Both the position numbers and the translations under genes were made by a program. Of a DNA stretch of 64,000 nucleotides, positions 1-64,000 are shown one piece after another. The stretch's first letter is position 1, and the number at the start of each line of letters is the position of its first letter. The notes below the pieces were generated by a model. The model did not search any database. It was not told where the DNA came from and saw only the letters and a program-made list of their open reading frames with translations. Origin of the DNA: Aphelocoma coerulescens (lineage: Eukaryota > Chordata > Aves > Passeriformes > Corvidae); the NCBI RefSeq assembly GCF_041296385.1, contig NW_027183509.1, forward strand, positions 1 to 64,000, given 5' to 3'.

Positions 1-96
1 TCAAAGGAGTAGACGGTGGCATCAGGACACACCTGTGTCCCAGCAGCTGGGTGCCCAGCCGGGAGCAGGAGCAGGGCTGGGGCTGCTCCCAAAGTT

Positions 97-108
97 GCCC
101 CGCCCCAA
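97..108 (+). promoter_or_regulatory. GC-box overlapping a CCAAT box (candidate, once per monomer)
   Basis: The text GCCCCGCCCCAAT contains an Sp1-type CCGCCC core immediately overlapping a CCAAT pentamer. It recurs at the same offset in every monomer. These are general promoter-type words and short matches arise by chance in G+C-rich DNA, so this is only a candidate. No initiator or TATA box sits at a sensible distance downstream. Confidence 0.25.
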
Positions 109-149
109 TGCCAGAGCCGGACATATGCTGAGGGGGGGCTGGATCAGGC

Positions 150-155
150 TTTATT
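150..155 (-). promoter_or_regulatory. Minus-strand polyadenylation hexamer AATAAA (once per monomer)
   Basis: The plus strand reads TTTATT, so the minus strand reads GGACAATAAAGCCTGATC, a context typical of vertebrate gene 3' ends. It lies downstream, in the minus direction, of the minisatellite's open minus-strand frame (433-891). It recurs about 150 bases into every monomer. It may mark the relic 3' end of a transcription unit from which the repeat arose, or a live termination signal. Transcription itself cannot be seen from sequence. Confidence 0.4.
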
Positions 156-387
156 GTCCAGCTGCATGCCAGGAGTGAGCACAAAATCTACCTGCATTCT
201 CTGCAGCATGCCATCCTGGAGCAGAGCCATTGCCAAAGGAAGCCGTGAGCCCGTGCCAAGCCAGTGCCGGAGTGGGATCCTAGCAGCACCTGTGGAAGCC
301 GGGAGAGAGGAGCCCACCTGGAGCAGGTTCGTGCAGGATTAATCATCCCGTGGCTTCCCACCAGGGTCCTGTTGCTTCCAAAAGGCC

Positions 388-404
388 CCACAGTGTCACT
401 GTGG
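388..404. other. 17-bp palindrome with one-base centre
   Basis: CCACAGTGTCACTGTGG has two perfect 8-base arms around a single T. It sits at the left edge of the minisatellite zone and recurs in every monomer. The right arm resembles the CACAGTGG word of each 75-bp unit. It could be a dyad binding site or simply a chance product of the repeat words. Confidence 0.8.
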
Positions 405-494
405 CCCCTCGGTTCCACCAGGTTCCATAGCGTCACTGTGGTGCCCAGGGTTCCGTCAGCTTCGCCAGCATCCCCACGGTCTGCAGAGGTCCCC

Positions 495-869
495 GAGCTT
501 CTGTGGTGTCACAGTGGAGGCAGGGTTGCATCAGGTTCCATAGCATCAGCACGGTCTCCAGGGCTCCCAGAGGTTCTGTGGTGTCACAGTGGAGGCAGGG
601 TTGCATCAGGTTCCATAGCATCACCACAGTCTCCAGGGCTCCCTGAGCTTCTGTGGTGTCACAGTGGAGGCAGGGTTGCATCAGGTTCCATAGCATCAGC
701 ACGGTCTCCAGGGCTCCCAGAGGTTCTGTGGTGTCACAGAGGAGGCAGGGTTGCATCAGGTTCCATAGCATCACCACGGTCTCCAGGGCTCCAAGAGCTT
801 CTGTGGTGTCACAGAGGAGGCAGGGTTGCATCAGGTTCAATAGCATCAGCACGGTCTCCAGGGCTCCCC
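495..869. repeat. Five-unit 75-bp minisatellite core (reference copy M1)
   Basis: Units start at 495, 570, 645, 720 and 795, each at GAGCTTCTGTGG or GAGGTTCTGTGG. Unit types can be told apart. Units 1-3 carry CACAGTGGAGG and units 4-5 CACAGAGGAGG. Units 1, 3 and 5 carry CATCAGCACGG, unit 2 CATCACCACAG and unit 4 CATCACCACGG. Unit 5 has CAATAGC in place of CCATAGC. The same order 1-2-3-4-5 occurs in 26 of 28 complete monomers, apart from a single-base conversion in unit 4 of M11 and M23. Only M15 and M28 differ in unit number. Confidence 0.97.
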
Positions 870-1120
870 TGAGCTTCTGTGGTGGTGTCACAGAGGAGCC
901 AGGCTTCCTTGTAGTTCCCCAGCATCACAAAGGCTCTCCTGGGAGCCACGGGTCACAAAGCACCGTGGGCTCTGTGCAGCCCCGCTGTGTCACAATGGCC
1001 GCTGGCTTCCACGAGCCCCCGCAGTGTCCCAGTGGGCCCCGTGGCTTTAGGAGTGGGTGGCTGGGAGTTGGTGCCAGCGGCTGGGGGAGCAGCAGCAGGG
1101 ACTGTGTGTGGACAGTGCCA

Positions 1121-1138
1121 TGGCCACTTGTGTGGCCA
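1121..1138. other. Short hairpin: 7-bp arms, 4-base loop
   Basis: TGGCCAC, four bases, then GTGGCCA form a perfect inverted repeat in every monomer. It is short, so a structural role is not established. It lies about 30 bases before the polymorphic T that sets the 2268/2269 length. Confidence 0.6.
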
Positions 1139-1198
1139 CTGGTGTCTCTGTGCCAGGCACAGCCGTGGTTGTGTAACACCGGCTCTGGGTCCTTTGGC

Positions 1199-1212
1199 TG
1201 TGCAGGTGGCAG
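1199..1212 (+). promoter_or_regulatory. CTCF-like core motif 1 (once per monomer)
   Basis: TGTGCAGGTGGCAG matches 11 of 14 positions of the vertebrate CTCF core (CCASYAGRKGGCRS), including the whole AGRKGGCRS part. It recurs in the same orientation in all 28 complete monomers, one base earlier in monomers lacking the extra T. Recurring same-strand CTCF sites are a known property of the mammalian DXZ4 macrosatellite. Binding here is inferred from the motif only; the same bases also form the AG/G of a splice-acceptor-like site. Confidence 0.35.
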
Positions 1213-1389
1213 TCACGGCCTGGAGCAGGGCTGCTCCCGGGGGACAGCCTGGGGCAGGAGGCTGCTGGAGATTCATTCCCCACACTCCTTGTCATGAGGT
1301 GCTCAGAGTGATTGGAAAGGCTGTTGGCAGCAGGCAGTTCTCTGGGTTCAAGCTGTGGAGCTGTCAGCGGGAATGCAAAGGCCAAGCTG
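1206..1389 (+). other. Exon-like segment bounded by splice-like AG and GT (low confidence)
   Basis: The left boundary is CCTTTGGCTGTGCAG, a pyrimidine-bearing 3' splice-like site with a possible branch word TGTAAC about 30 bases upstream. The right boundary is CTG/GTGAGC, a good 5' splice-like site. The 184-base stretch is open in one plus frame, but its product resembles nothing I know. It recurs in every monomer. It could be a relic exon, a non-coding-RNA exon, or chance. Confidence 0.15.
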
Positions 1390-1680
1390 GTGAGCCTTTT
1401 GTCCTGGTGCCTTTAGTGTGTGAGCAGTCCCTGGTGCCGTTGTCTTTGGATCCTGAGTGTGGGAGAGGCAAGGCTTAGGATGGTGCGTAGAGCTGAGAAG
1501 GAAAGTGCCGAGAGCAGCGTGTGTGCTGCTGCTTTGAGGGGTGCAGTTGAAGTTGTAGGCAGCAAGAGCTTTCTCAGCTGGCCCTTTTGTGAGCTCTGCT
1601 TTTGCCAGATGACTTCCATCTTACCCTCTTACCATCTTAGCCTCTCATTTTTGCATATCCCAAACCCCCTTCCAAACATC

Positions 1681-1735
1681 CAGCAGCTGCTTGTAAAGAA
1701 GAAGTCCTAGAACAAAAAGCCAGTGCTGCCTTTCA
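1681..1735. repeat. Internal ancient duplication, copy A
   Basis: It begins CAGCAGCTGCT and continues to CCTAGAA, AAAGCCAGT and GCTGCC. It aligns with copy B at 2151-2218, 470 bases downstream, over about 55-65 bases with small gaps. On the minus strand the two copies can be read as similar leucine-rich peptides (LLLYKQLLDVW here). The changes look conservative, which hints at a coding ancestor, but the match is short. Confidence 0.5.
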
Positions 1736-1817
1736 TAGCCCCTTTGCTGTCTATGAAGTAGAGGAAAGAAGCTAGTGAGACGCACTTTCTTTCTCAACTC
1801 CATAGAGCGCATCCTTC

Positions 1818-1831
1818 TCTCAAGGTGGCAG
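1818..1831 (+). promoter_or_regulatory. CTCF-like core motif 2 (once per monomer)
   Basis: TCTCAAGGTGGCAG matches 11 of 14 positions of the CTCF core in the same orientation as motif 1, about 620 bases away. One mismatch is at the usually pyrimidine fifth position. The evidence is weaker than for motif 1 and there is no functional support. Confidence 0.22.
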
Positions 1832-2055
1832 AGTCCTTGGCGGAAGTGAAGCATCTGCAGCTGCAGTTCAGACTGAGAGATGTGCCAGGACAGGAAACAT
1901 TTGCTGACCTTCCCTGTTCCCTGTGCAACATGATTCTCGCATCCCAGTCACTTTCACATACCTTCGGTATCCCTGAGTCCAAGCAGCTAAAGCTCACAGA
2001 GACAGAAGTGTCAGGAAGGAAAACGTTCCAAAAGCACCCCCTTCTCTTATCAGCA

Positions 2056-2061
2056 TATAAA
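2056..2061 (+). promoter_or_regulatory. TATA-like box (once per monomer)
   Basis: GCATATAAATTG contains a perfect TATAAA in a stretch that is A/T-rich compared with its surroundings. About 30 bases downstream, CTTCTCAGATAG resembles an initiator. This makes a possible plus-strand start just before the monomer junction. A single TATA word is weak evidence. Confidence 0.25.
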
Positions 2062-2113
2062 TTGTGCACAACAGGCTGCGGCACCGAACCTTCCTTCTCA
2101 GATAGACATGCCA

Positions 2114-2134
2114 TCACACTTTTCACTCTTGCAG
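2114..2134 (+). promoter_or_regulatory. 3' splice-site-like tract
   Basis: CACACTTTTCACTCTTGCAG is a pyrimidine-rich tract ending in CAG, the best splice-acceptor look-alike in the unit. A GTAAGC donor-like word follows at 2227, so 2135-2226 could behave as a 92-base exon. The pattern repeats in every monomer. Confidence 0.25.
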
Positions 2135-2150
2135 CTCGGTTGAAAAGCTC

Positions 2151-2218
2151 CAGCAGCTGCTCCCGCAATAGCAAAAGGTTCTAGAAGTGAAAGCCAGTTT
2201 GGGGCTGCACCTTCTCCT
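2151..2218. repeat. Internal ancient duplication, copy B
   Basis: It shares CAGCAGCTGCT, TCTAGAA, AAAGCCAGT and GGCTGC, in the same order, with copy A at 1681-1735. It has insertions of a few bases relative to A. On the minus strand it reads LLLREQLLELF, similar to LLLYKQLLDVW of copy A. The duplication must predate array amplification, since all monomers carry both copies. Confidence 0.5.
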
Positions 2219-2269
2219 TGCCGCATGTAAGCCACACCAAACTCCCTGATGCACTCTGTCCTCCCCTTC

Positions 2270-4538
2270 TCAAAGGAGTAGACGGTGGCATCAGGACACA
2301 CCTGTGTCCCAGCAGCTGGGTGCCCAGCCGGGAGCAGGAGCAGGGCTGGGGCTGCTCCCAAAGTTGCCCCGCCCCAATGCCAGAGCCGGACATATGCTGA
2401 GGGGGGGCTGGATCAGGCTTTATTGTCCAGCTGCATGCCAGGAGTGAGCACAAAATCTACCTGCATTCTCTGCAGCATGCCATCCTGGAGCAGAGCCATT
2501 GCCAAAGGAAGCCGTCAGCCCGTGCCAAGCCAGTGCCGGAGTGGGATCCTAGCAGCACCTGTGGAAGCCGGGAGAGAGGAGCCCACCTGGAGCAGGTTCG
2601 TGCAGGATTAATCATCCCGTGGCTTCCCACCAGGGTCCTGTTGCTTCCAAAAGGCCCCACAGTGTCACTGTGGCCCCTCGGTTCCACCAGGTTCCATAGC
2701 GTCACTGTGGTGCCCAGGGTTCCGTCAGCTTCGCCAGCATCCCCACGGTCTGCAGAGCTCCCCGAGCTTCTGTGGTGTCACAGTGGAGGCAGGGTTGCAT
2801 CAGGTTCCATAGCATCAGCACGGTCTCCAGGGCTCCCAGAGGTTCTGTGGTGTCACAGTGGAGGCAGGGTTGCATCAGGTTCCATAGCATCACCACAGTC
2901 TCCAGGGCTCCCTGAGCTTCTGTGGTGTCACAGTGGAGGCAGGGTTGCATCAGGTTCCATAGCATCAGCACGGTCTCCAGGGCTCCCAGAGGTTCTGTGG
3001 TGTCACAGAGGAGGCAGGGTTGCATCAGGTTCCATAGCATCACCACGGTCTCCAGGGCTCCAAGAGCTTCTGTGGTGTCACAGAGGAGGCAGGGTTGCAT
3101 CAGGTTCAATAGCATCAGCACGGTCTCCAGGGCTCCCCTGAGCTTCTGTGGTGGTGTCACAGAGGAGCCAGGCTTCCTTGTAGTTCCCCAGCATCACAAA
3201 GGCTCTCCTGGGAGCCACGGGTCACAAAGCACCGTGGGCTCTGTGCAGCCCCGCTGTGTCACAATGGCCGCTGGCTTCCACGAGCCCCCGCAGTGTCCCA
3301 GTGGGCCCCGTGGCTTTAGGAGTGGGTGGCTGGGAGTTGGTGCCAGCGGCTGGGGGAGCAGCAGCAGGGACTGTGTGTGGACAGTGCCATGGCCACTTGT
3401 GTGGCCACTGGTGTCTCTGTGCCAGGCACAGCCGTGGTTGTGTAACACCGGCTCTGGGTCCTTTGGCTGTGCAGGTGGCAGTCACGGCCTGGAGCAGGGC
3501 TGCTCCCGGGGGACAGCCTGGGGCAGGAGGCTGCTGGAGATTCATTCCCCACACTCCTTGTCATGAGGTGCTCAGAGTGATTGGAAAGGCTGTTGGCAGC
3601 AGGCAGTTCTCTGGGTTCAAGCTGTGGAGCTGTCAGCGGGAATGCAAAGGCCAAGCTGGTGAGCCTTTTGTCCTGGTGCCTTTAGTGTGTGAGCAGTCCC
3701 TGGTGCCGTTGTCTTTGGATCCTGAGTGTGGGAGAGGCAAGGCTTAGGATGGTGCGTAGAGCTGAGAAGGAAAGTGCCGAGAGCAGCGTGTGTGCTGCTG
3801 CTTTGAGGGGTGCAGTTGAAGTTGTAGGCAGCAAGAGCTTTCTCAGCTGGCCCTTTTGTGAGCTCTGCTTTTGCCAGATGACTTCCATCTTACCCTCTTA
3901 CCATCTTAGCCTCTCATTTTTGCATATCCCAAACCCCCTTCCAAACATCCAGCAGCTGCTTGTAAAGAAGAAGTCCTAGAACAAAAAGCCAGTGCTGCCT
4001 TTCATAGCCCCTTTGCTGTCTATGAAGTAGAGGAAAGAAGCTAGTGAGACGCACTTTCTTTCTCAACTCCATAGAGCGCATCCTTCTCTCAAGGTGGCAG
4101 AGTCCTTGGCGGAAGTGAAGCATCTGCAGCTGCAGTTCAGACTGAGAGATGTGCCAGGACAGGAAACATTTGCTGACCTTCCCTGTTCCCTGTGCAACAT
4201 GATTCTCGCATCCCAGTCACTTTCACATACCTTCGGTACCCCTGAGTCCAAGCAGCTAAAGCTCACAGAGACAGAAGTGTCAGGAAGGAAAACGTTCCAA
4301 AAGCACCCCCTTCTCTTATCAGCATATAAATTGTGCACAACAGGCTGCGGCACCGAACCTTCCTTCTCAGATAGACATGCCATCACACTTTTCACTCTTG
4401 CAGCTCGGTTGAAAAGCTCCAGCAGCTGCTCCCGCAATAGCAAAAGGTTCTAGAAGTGAAAGCCAGTTTGGGGCTGCACCTTCTCCTTGCCGCATGTAAG
4501 CCACACCAAACTCCCTGATGCACTCTGTCCTCCCCTTC
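2270..4538 (+). repeat. Monomer M2 (2269 bp, long)
   Basis: Minority alleles are s247 C and s1970 C. The minisatellite core is at 2764-3138. It shares s1970 C and the long state with M6 and M7, and s247 C with M14, M19 and M26. Confidence 0.95.
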
Positions 4539-6807
4539 TCAAAGGAGTAGACGGTGGCATCAGGACACACCTGTGTCCCAGCAGCTGGGTGCCCAGCCGG
4601 GAGCAGGAGCAGGGCTGGGGCTGCTCCCAAAGTTGCCCCGCCCCAATGCCAGAGCCGGACATATGCTGAGGGGGGGCTGGATCAGGCTTTATTGTCCAGC
4701 TGCATGCCAGGAGTGAGCACAAAATCTACCTGCATTCTCTGCAGCATGCCATCCTGGAGCAGAGCCATTGCCAAAGGAAGCCGTGAGCCCGTGCCAAGCC
4801 AGTGCCGGAGTGGGATCCTAGCAGCACCTGTGGAAGCCGGGAGAGAGGAGCCCACCTGGAGCAGGTTCGTGCAGGATTAATCATCCCGTGGCTTCCCACC
4901 AGGGTCCTGTTGCTTCCAAAAGGCCCCACAGTGTCACTGTGGCCCCTCGGTTCCACCAGGTTCCATAGCGTCACTGTGGTGTCCAGGGTTCCGTCAGCTT
5001 CGCCAGCATCCCCACGGTCTGCAGAGCTCCCCGAGCTTCTGTGGTGTCACAGTGGAGGCAGGGTTGCATCAGGTTCCATAGCATCAGCACGGTCTCCAGG
5101 GCTCCCAGAGGTTCTGTGGTGTCACAGTGGAGGCAGGGTTGCATCAGGTTCCATAGCATCACCACAGTCTCCAGGGCTCCCTGAGCTTCTGTGGTGTCAC
5201 AGTGGAGGCAGGGTTGCATCAGGTTCCATAGCATCAGCACGGTCTCCAGGGCTCCCAGAGGTTCTGTGGTGTCACAGAGGAGGCAGGGTTGCATCAGGTT
5301 CCATAGCATCACCACGGTCTCCAGGGCTCCAAGAGCTTCTGTGGTGTCACAGAGGAGGCAGGGTTGCATCAGGTTCAATAGCATCAGCACGGTCTCCAGG
5401 GCTCCCCTGAGCTTCTGTGGTGGTGTCACAGAGGAGCCAGGCTTCCTTGTAGTTCCCCAGCATCACAAAGGCTCTCCTGGGAGCCACGGGTCACAAAGCA
5501 CCGTGGGCTCTGTGCAGCCCCGCTGTGTCACAATGGCCGCTGGCTTCCACGAGCCCCCGCAGTGTCCCAGTGGGCCCCGTGGCTTTAGGAGTGGGTGGCT
5601 GGGAGTTGGTGCCAGCGGCTGGGGGAGCAGCAGCAGGGACTGTGTGTGGACAGTGCCATGGCCACTTGTGTGGCCACTGGTGTCTCTGTGCCAGGCACAG
5701 CCGTGGTTGTGTAACACCGGCTCTGGGTCCTTTGGCTGTGCAGGTGGCAGTCACGGCCTGGAGCAGGGCTGCTCCCGGGGGACAGCCTGGGGCAGGAGGC
5801 TGCTGGAGATTCATTCCCCACACTCCTTGTCATGAGGTGCTCAGAGTGATTGGAAAGGCTGTTGGCAGCAGGCAGTTCTCTGGGTTCAAGCTGTGGAGCT
5901 GTCAGCGGGAATGCAAAGGCCAAGCTGGTGAGCCTTTTGTCCTGGTGCCTTTAGTGTGTGAGCAGTCCCTGGTGCCGTTGTCTTTGGATCCTGAGTGTGG
6001 GAGAGGCAAGGCTTAGGATGGTGCGTAGAGCTGAGAAGGAAAGTGCCGAGAGCAGCGTGTGTGCTGCTGCTTTGAGGGGTGCAGTTGAAGTTGTAGGCAG
6101 CAAGAGCTTTCTCAGCTGGCCCTTTTGTGAGCTCTGCTTTTGCCAGATGACTTCCATCTTACCCTCTTACCATCTTAGCCTCTCATTTTTGCATATCCCA
6201 AACCCCCTTCCAAACATCCAGCAGCTGCTTGTAAAGAAGAAGTCCTAGAACAAAAAGCCAGTGCTGCCTTTCATAGCCCCTTTGCTGTCTATGAAGTAGA
6301 GGAAAGAAGCTAGTGAGACGCACTTTCTTTCTCAACTCCATAGAGCGCATCCTTCTCTCAAGGTGGCAGAGTCCTTGGCGGAAGTGAAGCATCTGCAGCT
6401 GCAGTTCAGACTGAGAGATGTGCCAGGACAGGAAACATTTGCTGACCTTCCCTGTTCCCTGTGCAACATGATTCTCGCATCCCAGTCACTTTCACATACC
6501 TTCGGTATCCCTGAGTCCAAGCAGCTAAAGCTCACAGAGACAGAAGTGTCAGGAAGGAAAACGTTGCAAAAGCACCCCCTTCTCTTATCAGCATATAAAT
6601 TGTGCACAACAGGCTGCGGCACCGAACCTTCCTTCTCAGATAGACATGCCATCACACTTTTCACTCTTGCAGCTCGGTTGAAAAGCTCCAGCAGCTGCTC
6701 CCGCAATAGCAAAAGGTTCTAGAAGTGAAAGCCAGTTTGGGGCTGCACCTTCTCCTTGCCGCATGTAAGCCACACCAAACTCCCTGATGCACTCTGTCCT
6801 CCCCTTC
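4539..6807 (+). repeat. Monomer M3 (2269 bp, long)
   Basis: Minority alleles are s444 T and s2028 G. It is the same as M8 at all tracked sites, five monomers on. The minisatellite core is at 5033-5407. Confidence 0.95.
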
Positions 6808-9075
6808 TCAAAGTAGTAGACGGTGGCATCAGGACACACCTGTGTCCCAGCAGCTGGGTGCCCAGCCGGGAGCAGGAGCAGGGCTGGGGCTGCTCCCAAA
6901 GTTGCCCCGCCCCAATGCCAGAGCCGGACATATGCTGAGGGGGGGCTGGATCAGGCTTTATTGTCCAGCTGCATGCCAGGATTGAGCACAAAATCTACCT
7001 GCATTCTCTGCAGCATGCCATCCTGGAGCAGAGCCATTGCCAAAGGAAGCCGTGAGCCCGTGCCAAGCCAGTGCCGGAGTGGGATCCTAGCAGCACCTGT
7101 GGAAGCCGGGAGAGAGGAGCCCACCTGGAGCAGGTTCGTGCAGGATTAATCATCCCGTGGCTTCCCACCAGGGTCCTGTTGCTTCCAAAAGGCCCCACAG
7201 TGTCACTGTGGCCCCTCGGTTCCACCAGGTTCCATAGCGTCACTGTGGTGCCCAGGGTTCCGTCAGCTTCGCCAGCATCCCCACGGTCTGCAGAGCTCCC
7301 CGAGCTTCTGTGGTGTCACAGTGGAGGCAGGGTTGCATCAGGTTCCATAGCATCAGCACGGTCTCCAGGGCTCCCAGAGGTTCTGTGGTGTCACAGTGGA
7401 GGCAGGGTTGCATCAGGTTCCATAGCATCACCACAGTCTCCAGGGCTCCCTGAGCTTCTGTGGTGTCACAGTGGAGGCAGGGTTGCATCAGGTTCCATAG
7501 CATCAGCACGGTCTCCAGGGCTCCCAGAGGTTCTGTGGTGTCACAGAGGAGGCAGGGTTGCATCAGGTTCCATAGCATCACCACGGTCTCCAGGGCTCCA
7601 AGAGCTTCTGTGGTGTCACAGAGGAGGCAGGGTTGCATCAGGTTCAATAGCATCAGCACGGTCTCCAGGGCTCCCCTGAGCTTCTGTGGTGGTGTCACAG
7701 AGGAGCCAGGCTTCCTTGTAGTTCCCCAGCATCACAAAGGCTCTCCTGGGAGCCACGGGTCACAAAGCACCGTGGGCTCTGTGCAGCCCCGCTGTGTCAC
7801 AATGGCCGCTGGCTTCCACGAGCCCCCGCAGTGTCCCAGTGGGCCCCGTGGCTTTAGGAGTGGGTGGCTGGGAGTTGGTGCCAGCGGCTGGGGGAGCAGC
7901 AGCAGGGACTGTGTGTGGACAGTGCCATGGCCACTTGTGTGGCCACTGGTGTCTCTGTGCCAGGCACAGCCGTGGTGTGTAACACCGGCTCTGGGTCCTT
8001 TGGCTGTGCAGGTGGCAGTCACGGCCTGGAGCAGGGCTGCTCCCGGGGGACAGCCTGGGGCAGGAGGCTGCTGGAGATTCATTCCCCACACTCCTTGTCA
8101 TGAGGTGCTCAGAGTGATTGGAAAGGCTGTTGGCAGCAGGCAGTTCTCTGGGTTCAAGCTGTGGAGCTGTCAGCGGGAATGCAAAGGCCAAGCTGGTGAG
8201 CCTTTTGTCCTGGTGCCTTTAGTGTGTGAGCAGTCCCTGGTGCCGTTGTCTTTGGATCCTGAGTGTGGGAGAGGCAAGGCTTAGGATGGTGCGTAGAGCT
8301 GAGAAGGAAAGTGCCGAGAGCAGCGTGTGTGCTGCTGCTTTGAGGGGTGCAGTTGAAGTTGTAGGCAGCAAGAGCTTTCTCAGCTGGCCCTTTTGTGAGC
8401 TCTGCTTTTGCCAGATGACTTCCATCTTACCCTCTTACCATCTTAGCCTCTCATTTTTGCATATCCCAAACCCCCTTCCAAACATCCAGCAGCTGCTTGT
8501 AAAGAAGAAGTCCTAGAACAAAAAGCCAGTGCTGCCTTTCATAGCCCCTTTGCTGTCTATGAAGTAGAGGAAAGAAGCTAGTGAGACGCACTTTCTTTCT
8601 CAACTCCATAGAGCGCATCCTTCTCTCAAGGTGGCAGAGTCCTTGGCGGAAGTGAAGCATCTGCAGCTGCAGTTCAGACTGAGAGATGTGCCAGGACAGG
8701 AAACATTTGCTGACCTTCCCTGTTCCCTGTGCAACATGATTCTCGCATCCCAGTCACTTTCACATACCTTCGGTATCCCTGAGTCCAAGCAGCTAAAGCT
8801 CACAGAGACAGAAGTGTCAGGAAGGAAAACGTTCCAAAAGCACCCCCTTCTCTTATCAGCATATAAATTGTGCACAACAGGCTGCGGCACCGAACCTTCC
8901 TTCTCAGATAGACATGCCATCACACTTTTCACTCTTGCAGCTCGGTTGAAAAGCTCCAGCAGCTGCTCCCGCAATAGCAAAAGGTTCTAGAAGTGAAAGC
9001 CAGTTTGGGGCTGCACCTTCTCCTTGCCGCATGTAAGCCACACCAAACTCCCTGATGCACTCTGTCCTCCCCTTC
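6808..9075 (+). repeat. Monomer M4 (2268 bp, short)
   Basis: It carries the linked pair s7 T and s175 T and lacks one T at the 1169-1170 site. The short state fuses two plus frames into one 274-codon open frame (7460-8284). It is the same as M9 at all tracked sites. The minisatellite core is at 7302-7676. Confidence 0.95.
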
Positions 9076-31761: not shown

Positions 31762-34104
31762 TCAAAGTAGTAGACGGTGGCATCAGGACACACCTGTGTC
31801 CCAGCAGCTGGGTGCCCAGCCGGGAGCAGGAGCAGGGCTGGGGCTGCTCCCAAAGTTGCCCCGCCCCAATGCCAGAGCCGGACATATGCTGAGGGGGGGC
31901 TGGATCAGGCTTTATTGTCCAGCTGCATGCCAGGATTGAGCACAAAATCTACCTGCATTCTCTGCAGCATGCCATCCTGGAGCAGAGCCATTGCCAAAGG
32001 AAGCCGTGAGCCCGTGCCAAGCCAGTGCCGGAGTGGGATCCTAGCAGCACCTGTGGAAGCCGGGAGAGAGGAGCCCACCTGGAGCAGGTTCGTGCAGGAT
32101 TAATCATCCCGTGGCTTCCCACCAGGGTCCTGTTGCTTCCAAAAGGCCCCACAGTGTCACTGTGGCCCCTCGGTTCCACCAGGTTCCATAGCGTCACTGT
32201 GGTGCCCAGGGTTCCGTCAGCTTCGCCAGCATCCCCACGGTCTGCAGAGCTCCCCGAGCTTCTGTGGTGTCACAGTGGAGGCAGGGTTGCATCAGGTTCC
32301 ATAGCATCACCACGGTCTCCAGGGCTCCAAGAGCTTCTGTGGTGTCACAGAGGAGGCAGGGTTGCATCAGGTTCAATAGCATCAGCACGGTCTCCAGGGC
32401 TCCCAGAGGTTCTGTGGTGTCACAGTGGAGGCAGGGTTGCATCAGGTTCCATAGCATCACCACAGTCTCCAGGGCTCCCTGAGCTTCTGTGGTGTCACAG
32501 TGGAGGCAGGGTTGCATCAGGTTCCATAGCATCAGCACGGTCTCCAGGGCTCCCAGAGGTTCTGTGGTGTCACAGAGGAGGCAGGGTTGCATCAGGTTCC
32601 ATAGCATCACCACGGTCTCCAGGGCTCCAAGAGCTTCTGTGGTGTCACAGAGGAGGCAGGGTTGCATCAGGTTCAATAGCATCAGCACGGTCTCCAGGGC
32701 TCCCCTGAGCTTCTGTGGTGGTGTCACAGAGGAGGCAGGCTTCCTTGTAGTTCCCCAGCATCACAAAGGCTCTCCTGGGAGCCACGGGTCACAAAGCACC
32801 GTGGGCTCTGTGCAGCCCCGCTGTGTCACAATGGCCGCTGGCTTCCACGAGCCCCCGCAGTGTCCCAGTGGGCCCCGTGGCTTTAGGAGTGGGTGGCTGG
32901 GAGTTGGTGCCAGCGGCTGGGGGAGCAGCAGCAGGGACTGTGTGTGGACAGTGCCATGGCCACTTGTGTGGCCACTGGTGTCTCTGTGCCAGGCACAGCC
33001 GTGGTGTGTAACACCGGCTCTGGGTCCTTTGGCTGTGCAGGTGGCAGTCACGGCCTGGAGCAGGGCTGCTCCCGGGGGACAGCCTGGGGCAGGAGGCTGC
33101 TGGAGATTCATTCCCCACACTCCTTGTCATGAGGTGCTCAGAGTGATTGGAAAGGCTGTTGGCAGCAGGCAGTTCTCTGGGTTCAAGCTGTGGAGCTGTC
33201 AGCGGGAATGCAAAGGCCAAGCTGGTGAGCCTTTTGTCCTGGTGCCTTTAGTGTGTGAGCAGTCCCTGGTGCCGTTGTCTTTGGATCCTGAGTGTGGGAG
33301 AGGCAAGGCTTAGGATGGTGCGTAGAGCTGAGAAGGAAAGTGCCGAGAGCAGCGTGTGTGCTGCTGCTTTGAGGGGTGCAGTTGAAGTTGTAGGCAGCAA
33401 GAGCTTTCTCAGCTGGCCCTTTTGTGAGCTCTGCTTTTGCCAGATGACTTCCATCTTACCCTCTTACCATCTTAGCCTCTCATTTTTGCATATCCCAAAC
33501 CCCCTTCCAAACATCCAGCAGCTGCTTGTAAAGAAGAAGTCCTAGAACAAAAAGCCAGTGCTGCCTTTCATAGCCCCTTTGCTGTCTATGAAGTAGAGGA
33601 AAGAAGCTAGTGAGACGCACTTTCTTTCTCAACTCCATAGAGCGCATCCTTCTCTCAAGGTGGCAGAGTCCTTGGCGGAAGTGAAGCATCTGCAGCTGCA
33701 GTTCAGACTGAGAGATGTGCCAGGACAGGAAAAATTTGCTGACCTTCCCTGTTCCCTGTGCAACATGATTCTCGCATCCCAGTCACTTTCACATACCTTC
33801 GGTATCCCTGAGTCCAAGCAGCTAAAGCTCACAGAGACAGAAGTGTCAGGAAGGAAAACGTTCCAAAAGCACCCCCTTCTCTTATCAGCATATAAATTGT
33901 GCACAACAGGCTGCGGCACCGAACCTTCCTTCTCAGATAGACATGCCATCACACTTTTCACTCTTGCAGCTCGGTTGAAAAGCTCCAGCAGCTGCTCCCG
34001 CAATAGCAAAAGGTTCTAGAAGTGAAAGCCAGTTTGGGGCTGCACCTTCTCCTTGCCGCATGTAAGCCACACCAAACTCCCTGATGCACTCTGTCCTCCC
34101 CTTC
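31762..34104 (+). repeat. Monomer M15 (2343 bp, short, one extra 75-bp unit)
   Basis: It carries s7 T, s175 T, s899 G (at 32735) and s1898 A (at 33733). The minisatellite core has six units instead of five, which explains the extra 75 bp. Apart from the extra unit it equals M27 at all tracked sites. Confidence 0.95.
32256..32705. repeat. Expanded six-unit minisatellite in M15
   Basis: Read by unit type, the order is 1/4, 5/1, 2, 3, 4, 5. The first unit begins like unit 1 (CACAGTGGAGG) and ends like unit 4 (CATCACCACGG then CCAAGAG). The second begins like unit 5 (CACAGAGGAGG, CAATAGC) and ends like unit 1 (CCCAGAGG). A block from units 4-5 has therefore replaced or been inserted into unit 1. 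This needs a conversion tract or two crossovers rather than a simple one-step duplication. Confidence 0.9.
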
Positions 34105-54519: not shown

Positions 54520-56788
54520 TCAAAGGAGTAGACGGTGGCATCAGGACACACCTGTGTCCACGCAGCTGGGTGCCCAGCCGGGAGCAGGAGCAGGGCTGGG
54601 GCTGCTCCCAAAGTTGCCCCGCCCCAATGCCAGAGCCGGACATATGCTGAGGGGGGGCTGGATCAGGCTTTATTGTCCAGCTGCATGCCAGGAGTGAGCA
54701 CAAAATCTACCTGCATTCTCTGCAGCATGCCATCCTGGAGCAGAGCCATTGCCAAAGGAAGCCGTGAGCCCGTGCCAAGCCAGTGCCGGAGTGGGATCCT
54801 AGCAGCACCTGTGGAAGCCGGGAGAGAGGAGCCCACCTGGAGCAGGTTCGTGCAGGATTAATCATCCCGTGGCTTCCCACCAGGGTCCTGTTGCTTCCAA
54901 AAGGCCCCACAGTGTCACTGTGGCCCCTCGGTTCCACCAGGTTCCATAGCGTCACTGTGGTGCCCAGGGTTCCGTCAGCTTCGCCAGCATCCCCACGGTC
55001 TGCAGAGCTCCCCGAGCTTCTGTGGTGTCACAGTGGAGGCAGGGTTGCATCAGGTTCCATAGCATCAGCACGGTCTCCAGGGCTCCCAGAGGTTCTGTGG
55101 TGTCACAGTGGAGGCAGGGTTGCATCAGGTTCCATAGCATCACCACAGTCTCCAGGGCTCCCTGAGCTTCTGTGGTGTCACAGTGGAGGCAGGGTTGCAT
55201 CAGGTTCCATAGCATCAGCACGGTCTCCAGGGCTCCCAGAGGTTCTGTGGTGTCACAGAGGAGGCAGGGTTGCATCAGGTTCCATAGCATCACCACGGTC
55301 TCCAGGGCTCCAAGAGCTTCTGTGGTGTCACAGAGGAGGCAGGGTTGCATCAGGTTCAATAGCATCAGCACGGTCTCCAGGGCTCCCCTGAGCTTCTGTG
55401 GTGGTGTCACAGAGGAGCCAGGCTTCCTTGTAGTTCCCCAGCATCACAAAGGCTCTCCTGGGAGCCACGGGTCACAAAGCACCGTGGGCTCTGTGCAGCC
55501 CCGCTGTGTCACAATGGCCGCTGGCTTCCACGAGCCCCCGCAGTGTCCCAGTGGGCCCCGTGGCTTTAGGAGTGGGTGGCTGGGAGTTGGTGCCAGCGGC
55601 TGGGGGAGCAGCAGCAGGGACTGTGTGTGGACAGTGCCATGGCCACTTGTGTGGCCACTGGTGTCTCTGTGCCAGGCACAGCCGTGGTTGTGTAACACCG
55701 GCTCTGGGTCCTTTGGCTGTGCAGGTGGCAGTCACGGCCTGGAGCAGGGCTGCTCCCGGGGGACAGCCTGGGGCAGGAGGCTGCTGGAGATTCATTCCCC
55801 ACACTCCTTGTCATGAGGTGCTCAGAGTGATTGGAAAGGCTGTTGGCAGCAGGCAGTTCTCTGGGTTCAAGCTGTGGAGCTGTCAGCGGGAATGCAAAGG
55901 CCAAGCTGGTGAGCCTTTTGTCCTGGTGCCTTTAGTGTGTGAGCAGTCCCTGGTGCCGTTGTCTTTGGATCCTGAGTGTGGGAGAGGCAAGGCTTAGGAT
56001 GGTGCGTAGAGCTGAGAAGGAAAGTGCCGAGAGCAGCGTGTGTGCTGCTGCTTTGAGGGGTGCAGTTGAAGTTGTAGGCAGCAAGAGCTTTCTCAGCTGG
56101 CCCTTTTGTGAGCTCTGCTTTTGCCAGATGACTTCCATCTTACCCTCTTACCATCTTAGCCTCTCATTTTTGCATATCCCAAACCCCCTTCCAAACATCC
56201 AGCAGCTGCTTGTAAAGAAGAAGTCCTAGAACAAAAAGCCAGTGCTGCCTTTCATAGCCCCTTTGCTGTCTATGAAGTAGAGGAAAGAAGCTAGTGAGAC
56301 GCACTTTCTTTCTCAACTCCATAGAGCGCATCCTTCTCTCAAGGTGGCAGAGTCCTTGGCGGAAGTGAAGCATCTGCAGCTGCAGTTCAGACTGAGAGAT
56401 GTGCCAGGACAGGAAACATTTGCTGACCTTCCCTGTTCCCTGTGCAACATGATTCTCGCATCCCAGTCACTTTCACATACCTTCGGTATCCCTGAGTCCA
56501 AGCAGCTAAAGCTCACAGAGACAGAAGTGTCAGGAAGGAAAACGTTGCAAAAGCACCCCCTTCTCTTATCAGCATATAAATTGTGCACAACAGGCTGCGG
56601 CACCGAACCTTCCTTCTCAGATAGACATGCCATCACACTTTTCACTCTTGCAGCTCGGTTGAAAAGCTCCAGCAGCTGCTCCCGCAATAGCAAAAGGTTC
56701 TAGAAGTGAAAGCCAGTTTGGGGCTGCACCTTCTCCTTGCCGCATGTAAGCCACACCAAACTCCCTGATGCACTCTGTCCTCCCCTTC
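54520..56788 (+). repeat. Monomer M25 (2269 bp, long; private dinucleotide swap)
   Basis: It carries s2028 G plus a unique CA-to-AC change at 54560-54561 (GTGTCCACGCAG in place of GTGTCCCAGCAG). The minisatellite core is at 55014-55388. Confidence 0.95.
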
Positions 56789-59057
56789 TCAAAGGAGTAG
56801 ACGGTGGCATCAGGACACACCTGTGTCCCAGCAGCTGGGTGCCCAGCCGGGAGCAGGAGCAGGGCTGGGGCTGCTCCCAAAGTTGCCCCGCCCCAATGCC
56901 AGAGCCGGACATATGCTGAGGGGGGGCTGGATCAGGCTTTATTGTCCAGCTGCATGCCAGGAGTGAGCACAAAATCTACCTGCATTCTCTGCAGCATGCC
57001 ATCCTGGAGCAGAGCCATTGCCAAAGGAAGCCGTCAGCCCGTGCCAAGCCAGTGCCGGAGTGGGATCCTAGCAGCACCTGTGGAAGCCGGGAGAGAGGAG
57101 CCCACCTGGAGCAGGTTCGTGCAGGATTAATCATCCCGTGGCTTCCCACCAGGGTCCTGTTGCTTCCAAAAGGCCCCACAGTGTCACTGTGGCCCCTCGG
57201 TTCCACCAGGTTCCATAGCGTCACTGTGGTGTCCAGGGTTCCGTCAGCTTCGCCAGCATCCCCACGGTCTGCAGAGCTCCCCGAGCTTCTGTGGTGTCAC
57301 AGTGGAGGCAGGGTTGCATCAGGTTCCATAGCATCAGCACGGTCTCCAGGGCTCCCAGAGGTTCTGTGGTGTCACAGTGGAGGCAGGGTTGCATCAGGTT
57401 CCATAGCATCACCACAGTCTCCAGGGCTCCCTGAGCTTCTGTGGTGTCACAGTGGAGGCAGGGTTGCATCAGGTTCCATAGCATCAGCACGGTCTCCAGG
57501 GCTCCCAGAGGTTCTGTGGTGTCACAGAGGAGGCAGGGTTGCATCAGGTTCCATAGCATCACCACGGTCTCCAGGGCTCCAAGAGCTTCTGTGGTGTCAC
57601 AGAGGAGGCAGGGTTGCATCAGGTTCAATAGCATCAGCACGGTCTCCAGGGCTCCCCTGAGCTTCTGTGGTGGTGTCACAGAGGAGCCAGGCTTCCTTGT
57701 AGTTCCCCAGCATCACAAAGGCTCTCCTGGGAGCCACGGGTCACAAAGCACCGTGGGCTCTGTGCAGCCCCGCTGTGTCACAATGGCCGCTGGCTTCCAC
57801 GAGCCCCCGCAGTGACCCAGTGGGCCCCGTGGCTTTAGGAGTGGGTGGCTGGGAGTTGGTGCCAGCGGCTGGGGGAGCAGCAGCAGGGACTGTGTGTGGA
57901 CAGTGCCATGGCCACTTGTGTGGCCACTGGTGTCTCTGTGCCAGGCACAGCCGTGGTTGTGTAACACCGGCTCTGGGTCCTTTGGCTGTGCAGGTGGCAG
58001 TCACGGCCTGGAGCAGGGCTGCTCCCGGGGGACAGCCTGGGGCAGGAGGCTGCTGGAGATTCATTCCCCACACTCCTTGTCATGAGGTGCTCAGAGTGAT
58101 TGGAAAGGCTGTTGGCAGCAGGCAGTTCTCTGGGTTCAAGCTGTGGAGCTGTCAGCGGGAATGCAAAGGCCAAGCTGGTGAGCCTTTTGTCCTGGTGCCT
58201 TTAGTGTGTGAGCAGTCCCTGGTGCCGTTGTCTTTGGATCCTGAGTGTGGGAGAGGCAAGGCTTAGGATGGTGCGTAGAGCTGAGAAGGAAAGTGCCGAG
58301 AGCAGCGTGTGTGCTGCTGCTTTGAGGGGTGCAGTTGAAGTTGTAGGCAGCAAGAGCTTTCTCAGCTGGCCCTTTTGTGAGCTCTGCTTTTGCCAGATGA
58401 CTTCCATCTTACCCTCTTACCATCTTAGCCTCTCATTTTTGCATATCCCAAACCCCCTTCCAAACATCCAGCAGCTGCTTGTAAAGAAGAAGTCCTAGAA
58501 CAAAAAGCCAGTGCTGCCTTTCATAGCCCCTTTGCTGTCTATGAAGTAGAGGAAAGAAGCTAGTGAGACGCACTTTCTTTCTCAACTCCATAGAGCGCAT
58601 CCTTCTCTCAAGGTGGCAGAGTCCTTGGCGGAAGTGAAGCATCTGCAGCTGCAGTTCAGACTGAGAGATGTGCCAGGACAGGAAACATTTGCTGACCTTC
58701 CCTGTTCCCTGTGCAACATGATTCTCGCATCCCAGTCACTTTCACATACCTTCGGTATCCCTGAGTCCAAGCAGCTAAAGCTCACAGAGACAGAAGTGTC
58801 AGGAAGGAAAACGTTGCAAAAGCACCCCCTTCTCTTATCAGCATATAAATTGTGCACAACAGGCTGCGGCACCGAACCTTCCTTCTCAGATAGACATGCC
58901 ATCACACTTTTCACTCTTGCAGCTCGGTTGAAAAGCTCCAGCAGCTGCTCCCGCAATAGCAAAAGGTTCTAGAAGTGAAAGCCAGTTTGGGGCTGCACCT
59001 TCTCCTTGCCGCATGTAAGCCACACCAAACTCCCTGATGCACTCTGTCCTCCCCTTC
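56789..59057 (+). repeat. Monomer M26 (2269 bp, long)
   Basis: It carries s247 C, s444 T and s2028 G, plus a private T-to-A at 57815. That change makes a stop codon and cuts the usual 214-codon plus frame to 124 codons. The minisatellite core is at 57283-57657. Confidence 0.95.
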
Positions 59058-61325
59058 TCAAAGTAGTAGACGGTGGCATCAGGACACACCTGTGTCCCAG
59101 CAGCTGGGTGCCCAGCCGGGAGCAGGAGCAGGGCTGGGGCTGCTCCCAAAGTTGCCCCGCCCCAATGCCAGAGCCGGACATATGCTGAGGGGGGGCTGGA
59201 TCAGGCTTTATTGTCCAGCTGCATGCCAGGATTGAGCACAAAATCTACCTGCATTCTCTGCAGCATGCCATCCTGGAGCAGAGCCATTGCCAAAGGAAGC
59301 CGTGAGCCCGTGCCAAGCCAGTGCCGGAGTGGGATCCTAGCAGCACCTGTGGAAGCCGGGAGAGAGGAGCCCACCTGGAGCAGGTTCGTGCAGGATTAAT
59401 CATCCCGTGGCTTCCCACCAGGGTCCTGTTGCTTCCAAAAGGCCCCACAGTGTCACTGTGGCCCCTCGGTTCCACCAGGTTCCATAGCGTCACTGTGGTG
59501 CCCAGGGTTCCGTCAGCTTCGCCAGCATCCCCACGGTCTGCAGAGCTCCCCGAGCTTCTGTGGTGTCACAGTGGAGGCAGGGTTGCATCAGGTTCCATAG
59601 CATCAGCACGGTCTCCAGGGCTCCCAGAGGTTCTGTGGTGTCACAGTGGAGGCAGGGTTGCATCAGGTTCCATAGCATCACCACAGTCTCCAGGGCTCCC
59701 TGAGCTTCTGTGGTGTCACAGTGGAGGCAGGGTTGCATCAGGTTCCATAGCATCAGCACGGTCTCCAGGGCTCCCAGAGGTTCTGTGGTGTCACAGAGGA
59801 GGCAGGGTTGCATCAGGTTCCATAGCATCACCACGGTCTCCAGGGCTCCAAGAGCTTCTGTGGTGTCACAGAGGAGGCAGGGTTGCATCAGGTTCAATAG
59901 CATCAGCACGGTCTCCAGGGCTCCCCTGAGCTTCTGTGGTGGTGTCACAGAGGAGGCAGGCTTCCTTGTAGTTCCCCAGCATCACAAAGGCTCTCCTGGG
60001 AGCCACGGGTCACAAAGCACCGTGGGCTCTGTGCAGCCCCGCTGTGTCACAATGGCCGCTGGCTTCCACGAGCCCCCGCAGTGTCCCAGTGGGCCCCGTG
60101 GCTTTAGGAGTGGGTGGCTGGGAGTTGGTGCCAGCGGCTGGGGGAGCAGCAGCAGGGACTGTGTGTGGACAGTGCCATGGCCACTTGTGTGGCCACTGGT
60201 GTCTCTGTGCCAGGCACAGCCGTGGTGTGTAACACCGGCTCTGGGTCCTTTGGCTGTGCAGGTGGCAGTCACGGCCTGGAGCAGGGCTGCTCCCGGGGGA
60301 CAGCCTGGGGCAGGAGGCTGCTGGAGATTCATTCCCCACACTCCTTGTCATGAGGTGCTCAGAGTGATTGGAAAGGCTGTTGGCAGCAGGCAGTTCTCTG
60401 GGTTCAAGCTGTGGAGCTGTCAGCGGGAATGCAAAGGCCAAGCTGGTGAGCCTTTTGTCCTGGTGCCTTTAGTGTGTGAGCAGTCCCTGGTGCCGTTGTC
60501 TTTGGATCCTGAGTGTGGGAGAGGCAAGGCTTAGGATGGTGCGTAGAGCTGAGAAGGAAAGTGCCGAGAGCAGCGTGTGTGCTGCTGCTTTGAGGGGTGC
60601 AGTTGAAGTTGTAGGCAGCAAGAGCTTTCTCAGCTGGCCCTTTTGTGAGCTCTGCTTTTGCCAGATGACTTCCATCTTACCCTCTTACCATCTTAGCCTC
60701 TCATTTTTGCATATCCCAAACCCCCTTCCAAACATCCAGCAGCTGCTTGTAAAGAAGAAGTCCTAGAACAAAAAGCCAGTGCTGCCTTTCATAGCCCCTT
60801 TGCTGTCTATGAAGTAGAGGAAAGAAGCTAGTGAGACGCACTTTCTTTCTCAACTCCATAGAGCGCATCCTTCTCTCAAGGTGGCAGAGTCCTTGGCGGA
60901 AGTGAAGCATCTGCAGCTGCAGTTCAGACTGAGAGATGTGCCAGGACAGGAAAAATTTGCTGACCTTCCCTGTTCCCTGTGCAACATGATTCTCGCATCC
61001 CAGTCACTTTCACATACCTTCGGTATCCCTGAGTCCAAGCAGCTAAAGCTCACAGAGACAGAAGTGTCAGGAAGGAAAACGTTCCAAAAGCACCCCCTTC
61101 TCTTATCAGCATATAAATTGTGCACAACAGGCTGCGGCACCGAACCTTCCTTCTCAGATAGACATGCCATCACACTTTTCACTCTTGCAGCTCGGTTGAA
61201 AAGCTCCAGCAGCTGCTCCCGCAATAGCAAAAGGTTCTAGAAGTGAAAGCCAGTTTGGGGCTGCACCTTCTCCTTGCCGCATGTAAGCCACACCAAACTC
61301 CCTGATGCACTCTGTCCTCCCCTTC
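59058..61325 (+). repeat. Monomer M27 (2268 bp, short)
   Basis: It carries s7 T, s175 T, s899 G (at 59956) and s1898 A (at 60954). It is the same as M15 but with the ordinary five-unit core at 59552-59926, so it preserves the state M15 had before its expansion, or the reverse. Confidence 0.95.
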
Positions 61326-63818
61326 TCAAAGGAGTAGACGGTGGCATCAGGACACACCTGTGTCCCAGCAGCTGGGTGCCCAGCCGGGAGCAGGAGCAGG
61401 GCTGGGGCTGCTCCCAAAGTTGCCCCGCCCCAATGCCAGAGCCGGACATATGCTGAGGGGGGGCTGGATCAGGCTTTATTGTCCAGCTGCATGCCAGGAG
61501 TGAGCACAAAATCTACCTGCATTCTCTGCAGCATGCCATCCTGGAGCAGAGCCATTGCCAAAGGAAGCCGTGAGCCCGTGCCAAGCCAGTGCCGGAGTGG
61601 GATCCTAGCAGCACCTGTGGAAGCCGGGAGAGAGGAGCCCACCTGGAGCAGGTTCGTGCAGGATTAATCATCCCGTGGCTTCCCACCAGGGTCCTGTTGC
61701 TTCCAAAAGGCCCCACAGTGTCACTGTGGCCCCTCGGTTCCACCAGGTTCCATAGCGTCACTGTGGTGCCCAGGGTTCCGTCAGCTTCGCCAGCATCCCC
61801 ACGGTCTGCAGAGCTCCCCGAGCTTCTGTGGTGTCACAGTGGAGGCAGGGTTGCATCAGGTTCCATAGCATCAGCACGGTCTCCAGGGCTCCCAGAGGTT
61901 CTGTGGTGTCACAGTGGAGGCAGGGTTGCATCAGGTTCCATAGCATCACCACAGTCTCCAGGGCTCCCTGAGCTTCTGTGGTGTCACAGTGGAGGCAGGG
62001 TTGCATCAGGTTCCATAGCATCAGCACGGTCTCCAGGGCTCCCAGAGGTTCTGTGGTGTCACAGAGGAGGCAGGGTTGCATCAGGTTCCATAGCATCACC
62101 ACGGTCTCCAGGGCTCCCAGAGGTTCTGTGGTGTCACAGTGGAGGCAGGGTTGCATCAGGTTCCATAGCATCACCACAGTCTCCAGGGCTCCCTGAGCTT
62201 CTGTGGTGTCACAGTGGAGGCAGGGTTGCATCAGGTTCCATAGCATCAGCACGGTCTCCAGGGCTCCCAGAGGTTCTGTGGTGTCACAGAGGAGGCAGGG
62301 TTGCATCAGGTTCCATAGCATCACCACGGTCTCCAGGGCTCCAAGAGCTTCTGTGGTGTCACAGAGGAGGCAGGGTTGCATCAGGTTCAATAGCATCAGC
62401 ACGGTCTCCAGGGCTCCCCTGAGCTTCTGTGGTGGTGTCACAGAGGAGCCAGGCTTCCTTGTAGTTCCCCAGCATCACAAAGGCTCTCCTGGGAGCCACG
62501 GGTCACAAAGCACCGTGGGCTCTGTGCAGCCCCGCTGTGTCACAATGGCCGCTGGCTTCCACGAGCCCCCGCAATGTCCCAGTGGGCCCCGTGGCTTTAG
62601 GAGTGGGTGGCTGGGAGTTGGTGCCAGCGGCTGGGGGAGCAGCAGCAGGGACTGTGTGTGGACAGTGCCATGGCCACTTGTGTGGCCACTGGTGTCTCTG
62701 TGCCAGGCACAGCCGTGGTGTGTAACACCGGCTCTGGGTCCTTTGGCTGTGCAGGTGGCAGTCACGGCCTGGAGCAGGGCTGCTCCCGGGGGACAGCCTG
62801 GGGCAGGAGGCTGCTGGAGATTCATTCCCCACACTCCTTGTCATGAGGTGCTCAGAGTGATTGGAAAGGCTGTTGGCAGCAGGCAGTTCTCTGGGTTCAA
62901 GCTGTGGAGCTGTCAGCGGGAATGCAAAGGCCAAGCTGGTGAGCCTTTTGTCCTGGTGCCTTTAGTGTGTGAGCAGTCCCTGGTGCCGTTGTCTTTGGAT
63001 CCTGAGTGTGGGAGAGGCAAGGCTTAGGATGGTGCGTAGAGCTGAGAAGGAAAGTGCCGAGAGCAGCGTGTGTGCTGCTGCTTTGAGGGGTGCAGTTGAA
63101 GTTGTAGGCAGCAAGAGCTTTCTCAGCTGGCCCTTTTGTGAGCTCTGCTTTTGCCAGATGACTTCCATCTTACCCTCTTACCATCTTAGCCTCTCATTTT
63201 TGCATATCCCAAACCCCCTTCCAAACATCCAGCAGCTGCTTGTAAAGAAGAAGTCCTAGAACAAAAAGCCAGTGCTGCCTTTCATAGCCCCTTTGCTGTC
63301 TATGAAGTAGAGGAAAGAAGCTAGTGAGACGCACTTTCTTTCTCAACTCCATAGAGCGCATCCTTCTCTCAAGGTGGCAGAGTCCTTGGCGGAAGTGAAG
63401 CATCTGCAGCTGCAGTTCAGACTGAGAGATGTGCCAGGACAGGAAACATTTGCTGACCTTCCCTGTTCCCTGTGCAACATGATTCTCGCATCCCAGTCAC
63501 TTTCACATACCTTCGGTACCCCTGAGTCCAAGCAGCTAAAGCTCACAGAGACAGAAGTGTCAGGAAGGAAAACGTTCCAAAAGCACCCCCTTCTCTTATC
63601 AGCATATAAATTGTGCACAACAGGCTGCGGCACCGAACCTTCCTTCTCAGATAGACATGCCATCACACTTTTCACTCTTGCAGCTCGGTTGAAAAGCTCC
63701 AGCAGCTGCTCCCGCAATAGCAAAAGGTTCTAGAAGTGAAAGCCAGTTTGGGGCTGCACCTTCTCCTTGCCGCATGTAAGCCACACCAAACTCCCTGATG
63801 CACTCTGTCCTCCCCTTC
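61326..63818 (+). repeat. Monomer M28 (2493 bp, short, three extra 75-bp units)
   Basis: It carries s1024 A (at 62574) and s1970 C, as in M16 and M21. The minisatellite core has eight units, which explains the extra 225 bp. Confidence 0.95.
61820..62419. repeat. Expanded eight-unit minisatellite in M28
   Basis: Read by unit type, the order is 1, 2, 3, 4/1, 2, 3, 4, 5. The fourth unit starts as type 4 (CACAGAGGAGG, CATCACCACGG) but ends like type 1 (CCCAGAGG), after which units 2-5 follow in normal order. This is the pattern expected from a single unequal crossover between unit 4 of one copy and unit 1 of another. It is simpler than the M15 event and independent of it. Confidence 0.92.
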
Positions 63819-64000
63819 TCAAAGGAGTAGACGGTGGCATCAGGACACACCTGTGTCCCAGCAGCTGGGTGCCCAGCCGGGAGCAGGAGCAGGGCTGGGG
63901 CTGCTCCCAAAGTTGCCCCGCCCCAATGCCAGAGCCGGACATATGCTGAGGGGGGGCTGGATCAGGCTTTATTGTCCAGCTGCATGCCAGGAGTGAGCAC
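63819..64000 (+). repeat. Monomer M29, partial (first 182 bp, cut by window edge)
   Basis: It carries s7 G and s175 G, so it is not of the T-T type. By analogy with M16 to M17 and M21 to M22, the copy after an M16-type monomer would be expected to carry s444 T, but that site lies outside the window. Confidence 0.95.

Follow-up and report, generated by a model that had tools for sequence, protein, structure and literature searches.

A 2.27-kb satellite array of Aphelocoma coerulescens as a probable part of a nested tandem repeat alternating with a receptor and kinase gene block

The stretch of DNA analysed here, called the window throughout, comprises positions 1 to 64,000 (forward strand) of contig NW_027183509.1 in the Aphelocoma coerulescens assembly GCF_041296385.1. 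It consists entirely of one head-to-tail satellite array with a unit of 2.27 kb. The contig to which it belongs (C89; 431,260 bp, its base 1 being the start of the window) carries this satellite on both sides of a block with receptor- and kinase-like genes. The two junction sequences between satellite and block recur across the assembly, and it appears that the window is one portion of a larger repeat, below called the mega-repeat, in which arrays and gene blocks alternate. The features of the window are the following, the units being defined by their phase starts and the minisatellite by Tandem Repeats Finder (TRF):

1..64000, plus strand: portion of the 2.27-kb satellite array, with 28 full units plus 182 bp of the next; this array extends to contig base 93,569 (phase starts)
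1..2269, plus strand: unit 1 as phased, the phase being arbitrary and set by the contig end (phase starts)
446..884, plus strand: 75-bp minisatellite of unit 1, 5.8 copies (TRF)
31762..34104, plus strand: unit 15, 2,343 bp, with one added copy of the 75-bp minisatellite (phase starts, TRF)
61326..63818, plus strand: unit 28, 2,493 bp, with three added copies of the 75-bp minisatellite (phase starts, TRF)
63819..64000, plus strand: initial 182 bp of unit 29, truncated at the window end (phase starts)

The 29 phase starts all lie on the plus strand and delimit 28 contiguous full units of 2,268-2,493 bp, which makes the array a macrosatellite in the usual sense of a head-to-tail tandem repeat with units above 1 kb. 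The unit length is 2,268 or 2,269 bp in all full units but two, and the extra length of those two, 75 bp in unit 15 and 225 bp in unit 28, corresponds to one and three minisatellite copies, respectively. This minisatellite, present as one stretch in each unit (28 TRF rows, one per unit), was left out of the preliminary description that had been made of the window. The picture given there of about 28 near-identical 2.27-kb units filling the window agrees well with our alignment, in which the 28 full units have a mean pairwise identity of 0.9985 (99.85%) and a minimum of 0.9953. The same applies to the variation, said to be confined to about twelve recurrent sites and some singletons. Besides the 75-bp length changes we count 17 variable sites, 12 of which are found in at least two units (alignment columns 7, 175, 247, 444, 489, 999, 1124, 1249, 1394, 2123, 2195 and 2253) and five in a single unit (columns 41, 42, 774, 1252 and 2067). 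The statement that the array holds no transposon, inversion or unique DNA holds within the window, but a provirus-like insert interrupts the same unit about 113 kb past the window end. Since the array is truncated by the contig start and continues beyond the window, 28 units is a lower bound.

Contig C89 was also read from 64,001 to 210,000 and in two more 10-kb samples. The array ends at C89:93,569, and no segment of C89:93,570-168,783 matches the unit at E 1e-8. The satellite restarts at C89:168,784 with diverged units (94.9-97.9%), and identity reaches 99.8% again from 174,251. The first 41 full units of the C89 array fall into 33 distinct haplotypes with a mean identity of 0.9976, and neighbouring units at lags 1 and 2 are more similar to each other than in all 500 shuffles (0/500); lag 12 reached a p of 0.014, uncorrected over 29 lags. 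An array edge of a composite kind was seen at C23:5,259,072-5,317,468, where unit matches spaced about 2.1, 2.5 and 6.3-6.5 kb apart are followed by the regular 2.27-kb array.

From about 177 kb of C89 (177,450-209,618) the satellite unit is broken by the provirus-like insert, in which 4.4 kb with frames of retroviral appearance, as judged by eye, is enclosed by a pair of direct repeats (100% identity in an 832-bp self-match). Units with insert recur every 8,376 and every 3,105 bp, and these periods differ by 5,271 bp, the length of the interior together with one of the repeats (4,439 + 832). Amplification has thus involved units that carry the complete insert as well as units that carry one repeat only, and it is recent, given the 100% identity of the 832-bp matches listed.

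The block that adjoins the array on C89 is 75 kb long, free of units, and lies between 93,570 and 168,783. Its features are:

C89 107.1-108.1 kb: olfactory-receptor gene split across two frames (Pfam PF13853, 1.1e-35 and 4.6e-4)
C89 112.0-116.4 kb and 144.9-149.4 kb: PIM1-like kinase copies, 98.5% identical (Pfam Pkinase 4.1e-25; best PDB match PIM-1, 3.2e-45)
C89 near 135 kb, opposite strand: PAK-like exon (PDB PAK 1 and PAK 3 at 6e-9)
C89 151.4-152.5 kb: GA/CT-rich stretch
Within the 75-kb block: remnant of a retroviral integrase and further frames that look retroviral by eye

Two block copies on C89 share 99.83% and 99.94% identity over 5.2 and 4.8 kb. In one of them, frames of retroviral appearance lie within an insert some 7 kb long (C89:118,856-125,831); the other (C89:400,001-410,000) lacks this insert, and its empty site shows an overlap of 6 bp.

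Searches of the whole assembly (1.33 Gb, 660 contigs) revealed that this arrangement is repeated many times. A 36-mer across the array-to-block junction was found in 66 places (65 exact, one with one mismatch) and a 36-mer across the block-to-array junction in 67 places (61 exact, six with one mismatch), while the reversed controls gave none. In 150 scored candidates out of 376, a 229-aa fragment of the receptor reaches a rounded 100% identity at 66 sites distributed over 59 contigs, so that at least 66 such copies exist, and a 1,500-bp block marker is present at a rounded 100% in all of the 40 places scored among 2,200 candidates. The marker and the receptor are 2,594-2,617 bp apart in all 40 places, with 10 distinct values. 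For 62 of the 66 array-to-block junctions a 100% receptor copy lies at most 40 kb downstream, and 61 of these receptors are 13.74-13.89 kb off after subtraction of 651 bp on the minus strand, the remaining one (C104) being located at 23.1 kb. A single orientation was observed in all 28 contigs that contain both junctions and in all seven with two array-to-block junctions. The complete array intervals (n=29) range from 8.0 to 441.9 kb (median 159 kb) and the complete block intervals (n=10) from 40.9 to 77.6 kb (median 72 kb); contig ends break long arrays, so these interval lengths are biased short. Two 28-mers of the unit gave 11,044 and 11,222 occurrences with at most two mismatches, and none for the reversed patterns. 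These counts correspond to about 25 Mb of satellite (1.9% of the assembly), part of it outside the mega-repeat, and the whole mega-repeat with its 66 blocks would measure up to about 30 Mb.

The assembly thus contains about 66 array-plus-block units. The preliminary description had spoken of a macrosatellite under strong recent homogenisation. The 33 haplotypes among 41 units and the similarity of neighbours are in line with this, but the notion of an isolated array was incomplete, given that the junctions recur 66 and 67 times. With a probability of roughly 0.75, we propose that the window is part of a tandem repeat nested at three levels (75-bp minisatellite, 2.27-kb unit, and arrays alternating with the gene block), which would constitute non-coding satellite heterochromatin and be shaped by unequal exchange at two scales. 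Such a mega-repeat is expected to behave like other satellite heterochromatin, that is, to be non-coding. Unequal crossing over and gene conversion between one unit and another would produce the uniformity and the shifting length of the arrays. Exchange at this scale is suggested by the similarity of neighbouring units, the one diverged edge, and the insert that was copied along with the unit. The same processes, acting between one mega-unit and another, would provide the second scale, as suggested by the base-identical junctions, the near-identical blocks in one orientation, and the very unequal intervals.

Several observations weigh against this proposal. Four of the 66 array-to-block junctions (C31 at 2.09 Mb, C100, C529 and C658) are not accompanied by a 100% receptor copy; the receptor copies found elsewhere on these contigs are 90-98% identical and lie on the other strand. 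Conversely, four of the 66 receptor copies (C86, C166, C178 and C399) have no array-to-block junction upstream. Contig C23 ends in satellite with neither junction, and isolated copies of the unit are located apart from the mega-repeat on C25-C30, so that part of the approximately 11,000 units are not members of it. The lag signal is uncorrected for the 29 lags and partly regional, units 29-41 differing from units 1-28. The PAK-like frame has no Pfam match, and its PDB matches at 6e-9 are all that identifies it. The view at the sequence level covers, incompletely, one array (that of C89) and one block, the other intervals being defined by junction positions. Copy number, chromosome and heterochromatic state are all derived from the assembly, and the haploid count will be lower if both haplotypes are included in it.

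One alternative is an assembly artefact. If the assembler had multiplied a smaller locus, the 66 blocks and approximately 11,000 units would mostly be copies of a few true ones. The copies are indeed nearly identical and scattered over about 60 mostly small contigs, which break off within satellite, block or GA-rich stretches. However, simple multiplication by the assembler is made less likely by the receptor-to-marker distance, which takes 10 distinct values in 40 block copies. Together with the junction-to-junction intervals of 8.0 to 441.9 kb and the 7-kb insert carried by one C89 block copy and not by the other, these values exceed the variety expected from a single locus with two haplotypes. 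We therefore regard an artefact as quite improbable.

All 66 receptor copies have the same open-frame length, which indicates that the gene is broken alike in each of them, and the receptor gene looks like a passenger of the repeat. For the PIM-like exon, 94 of the 150 places scored among 866 candidates (counted by hand) are 100% identical over 124 aa and free of stops; recent copying alone suffices to explain this. Alternatively, the mega-repeat (at most about 30 Mb, with some 66 receptor-PIM-PAK blocks and their arrays) could be a young amplicon, selfish or selected, that is perhaps expressed in the gonad and drives in female meiosis, or is germline-restricted, an option we consider unlikely. 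Clusters of PIM-like exons (96-98%) extend across megabases of C485 and C641, separate from the mega-repeat, and C384, C529 and C635 contain many olfactory-receptor copies that are about 81-90% identical to the receptor of the block.

The unit itself could have been amplified on account of what it encodes, either a gene product or a structured RNA. Open frames reach 214 aa within positions 1-7,000 of the window, and four related proteins of 121-171 aa are encoded on short contigs. At 57% GC, however, long open frames are common, the relatives appear by eye to track the unit only via changes of reading frame, none of eight unit frames scored above the cut-off of any Pfam family, and no Rfam family reached its gathering score in positions 1-5,000 of the window. 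A role of this kind is therefore extremely unlikely. The four proteins match one unit frame with 56-90% identity over 16-49% of the query; as they come from short contigs, they indicate that related DNA is present in other samples. A further idea, in which short ancestral monomers make up the unit in the form of a ladder, was abandoned because self-alignment outside the 75-bp stretch gave weak matches only. The best of these (approximately 1631-1740 versus 2110-2222, score 51; top scores in 40 shuffles were 31 in one direction and 42 in the other) suggests a single old internal duplication, not a monomer ladder.

Information on the chromosomal setting comes mainly from contig C31 (2,389,440 bp), which starts, at base 1, with telomere repeats. 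The three 4-kb pieces sampled from this contig have a GC content of 0.53-0.68 and, by eye, a tandemly repetitive appearance. On its minus strand an array-to-block junction at 2,091,794 is followed by a block-to-array junction, a receptor copy and another array-to-block junction. A search for markers of the chromosome, with four frames of C31 against Pfam, gave no match above cut-off. The satellite at the end of contig C23 (5,423,631 bp) has the same orientation as that of C31, and these satellite flanks amount to at least two, belonging either to two chromosomes or to two haplotypes. We infer that the mega-repeat is located on small (dot) chromosomes.

The 2.27-kb unit might then be the working centromere satellite of these chromosomes. 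It is the most abundant tandem unit seen here (approximately 25 Mb), it is homogenised, and it occurs on many contigs. In many centromere satellites, the unit length follows a nucleosome-multiple pattern. The length of the present unit is far from that pattern, and the arrays are interrupted by gene blocks, which renders a centromeric function doubtful.

Linkage to the W chromosome was considered as well. A CHD1-like domain was detected in four places: on C39, on C12, and twice on C34 (20,333,922-20,476,723), where the two copies lie in opposite orientation, 143 kb apart. This makes C34 a candidate for the W. None of the 66 and 67 junction places is on C34, but other W contigs may exist. The W of the white-throated sparrow has a palindrome with part of CHD1W, according to PMC3403216, and if C34 is the W its CHD1-like pair may possibly be a similar palindrome.

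The closest described case is, by analogy, the pericentromeric heterochromatin of the chicken dot chromosomes. According to Huang et al. 2023 (PMC9974502), these chromosomes combine GC-rich, gene-rich euchromatin with heterochromatin that contains satellites and multicopy genes, among them the olfactory receptor OR29G with 386 intact copies on chr29; dot chromosomes also carry repetitive introns, as stated in PMC12954441. The junction, receptor and PIM-like counts reported above reveal the same interleaving of satellite arrays with multicopy genes. The likeness includes the association of satellite arrays with strongly amplified genes, an olfactory receptor among them, and may extend to the layout of euchromatin beside heterochromatin, with which the telomere and GC-rich samples of the flanking contig C31 would fit. 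Unlike in chicken, the alternation here is between one 2.27-kb satellite and one fixed gene block, present about 66 times; the receptor genes of the blocks have a frameshift in common, and PIM- and PAK-like kinases are added.

A combination of receptor, PIM1-like, PAK-like and retroviral sequences also recalls the germline-restricted chromosome (GRC) of the blue tit, on which, according to PMC10172847, receptor, PIM1, PAK1 and retroviral genes are multicopy. A mega-repeat that derives from a GRC present in the sampled tissue would account for this gene content. In the same source, receptor, PIM1 and PAK1 are likewise multicopy on ordinary chromosomes. Against a GRC speaks contig C31, where the mega-repeat is connected with a telomere and some 2 Mb of DNA with GC-rich samples; this contig looks like the end of an ordinary small chromosome, which would explain it. 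We thus find a GRC origin rather improbable.

Expansions of PAK3- and PIM1-like kinases in songbirds have reportedly been described by Kong et al. in 2010. The many PIM1-like and PAK-like copies found here are similar to these, but differ from the songbird expansions as known in that they sit in a tandem mega-repeat that bears satellite. Among the open-access titles and abstract openings surveyed, none names a 2.27-kb songbird satellite or a mega-repeat of satellite, receptor and kinases, which is no proof that it is unpublished. What appears to be new is that a single 2.27-kb satellite and a single gene block alternate strictly, head to tail, about 66 times over. This arrangement connects the location of the expanded receptor, PIM and PAK genes with the content of bird genome regions that break assemblies. 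The two fixed junction sequences allow mega-units to be counted from reads across tissues, sexes and species, and such counts could tell whether the kinase copies ride on the expansion of the satellite or were themselves selected.

Finally, some minor observations concern the contig ends and other contigs. The idea that contigs end at telomeres was rejected, as among 19 contig starts and the end of C89 one is telomeric (C31) and one is N (C23), the other sampled ends being satellite, block, GA-rich or other DNA. GA/CT-rich simple stretches were seen at the starts of C62 and C129 and at the end of C89; stretches of this type likely cause assembly breaks. The COX1 frame on C660 finds its best named matches in songbirds (Helopsaltes, Emberiza, Sporophila and Myiothlypis, 98-99%), against 95-98% for other birds, so that the sequence is that of a bird and most likely of a songbird. 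COX1-like fragments with stops are present on large nuclear contigs (C34:8,347,784-8,348,533 and C2:44,030,392-44,030,778) and are likely mitochondrial insertions.

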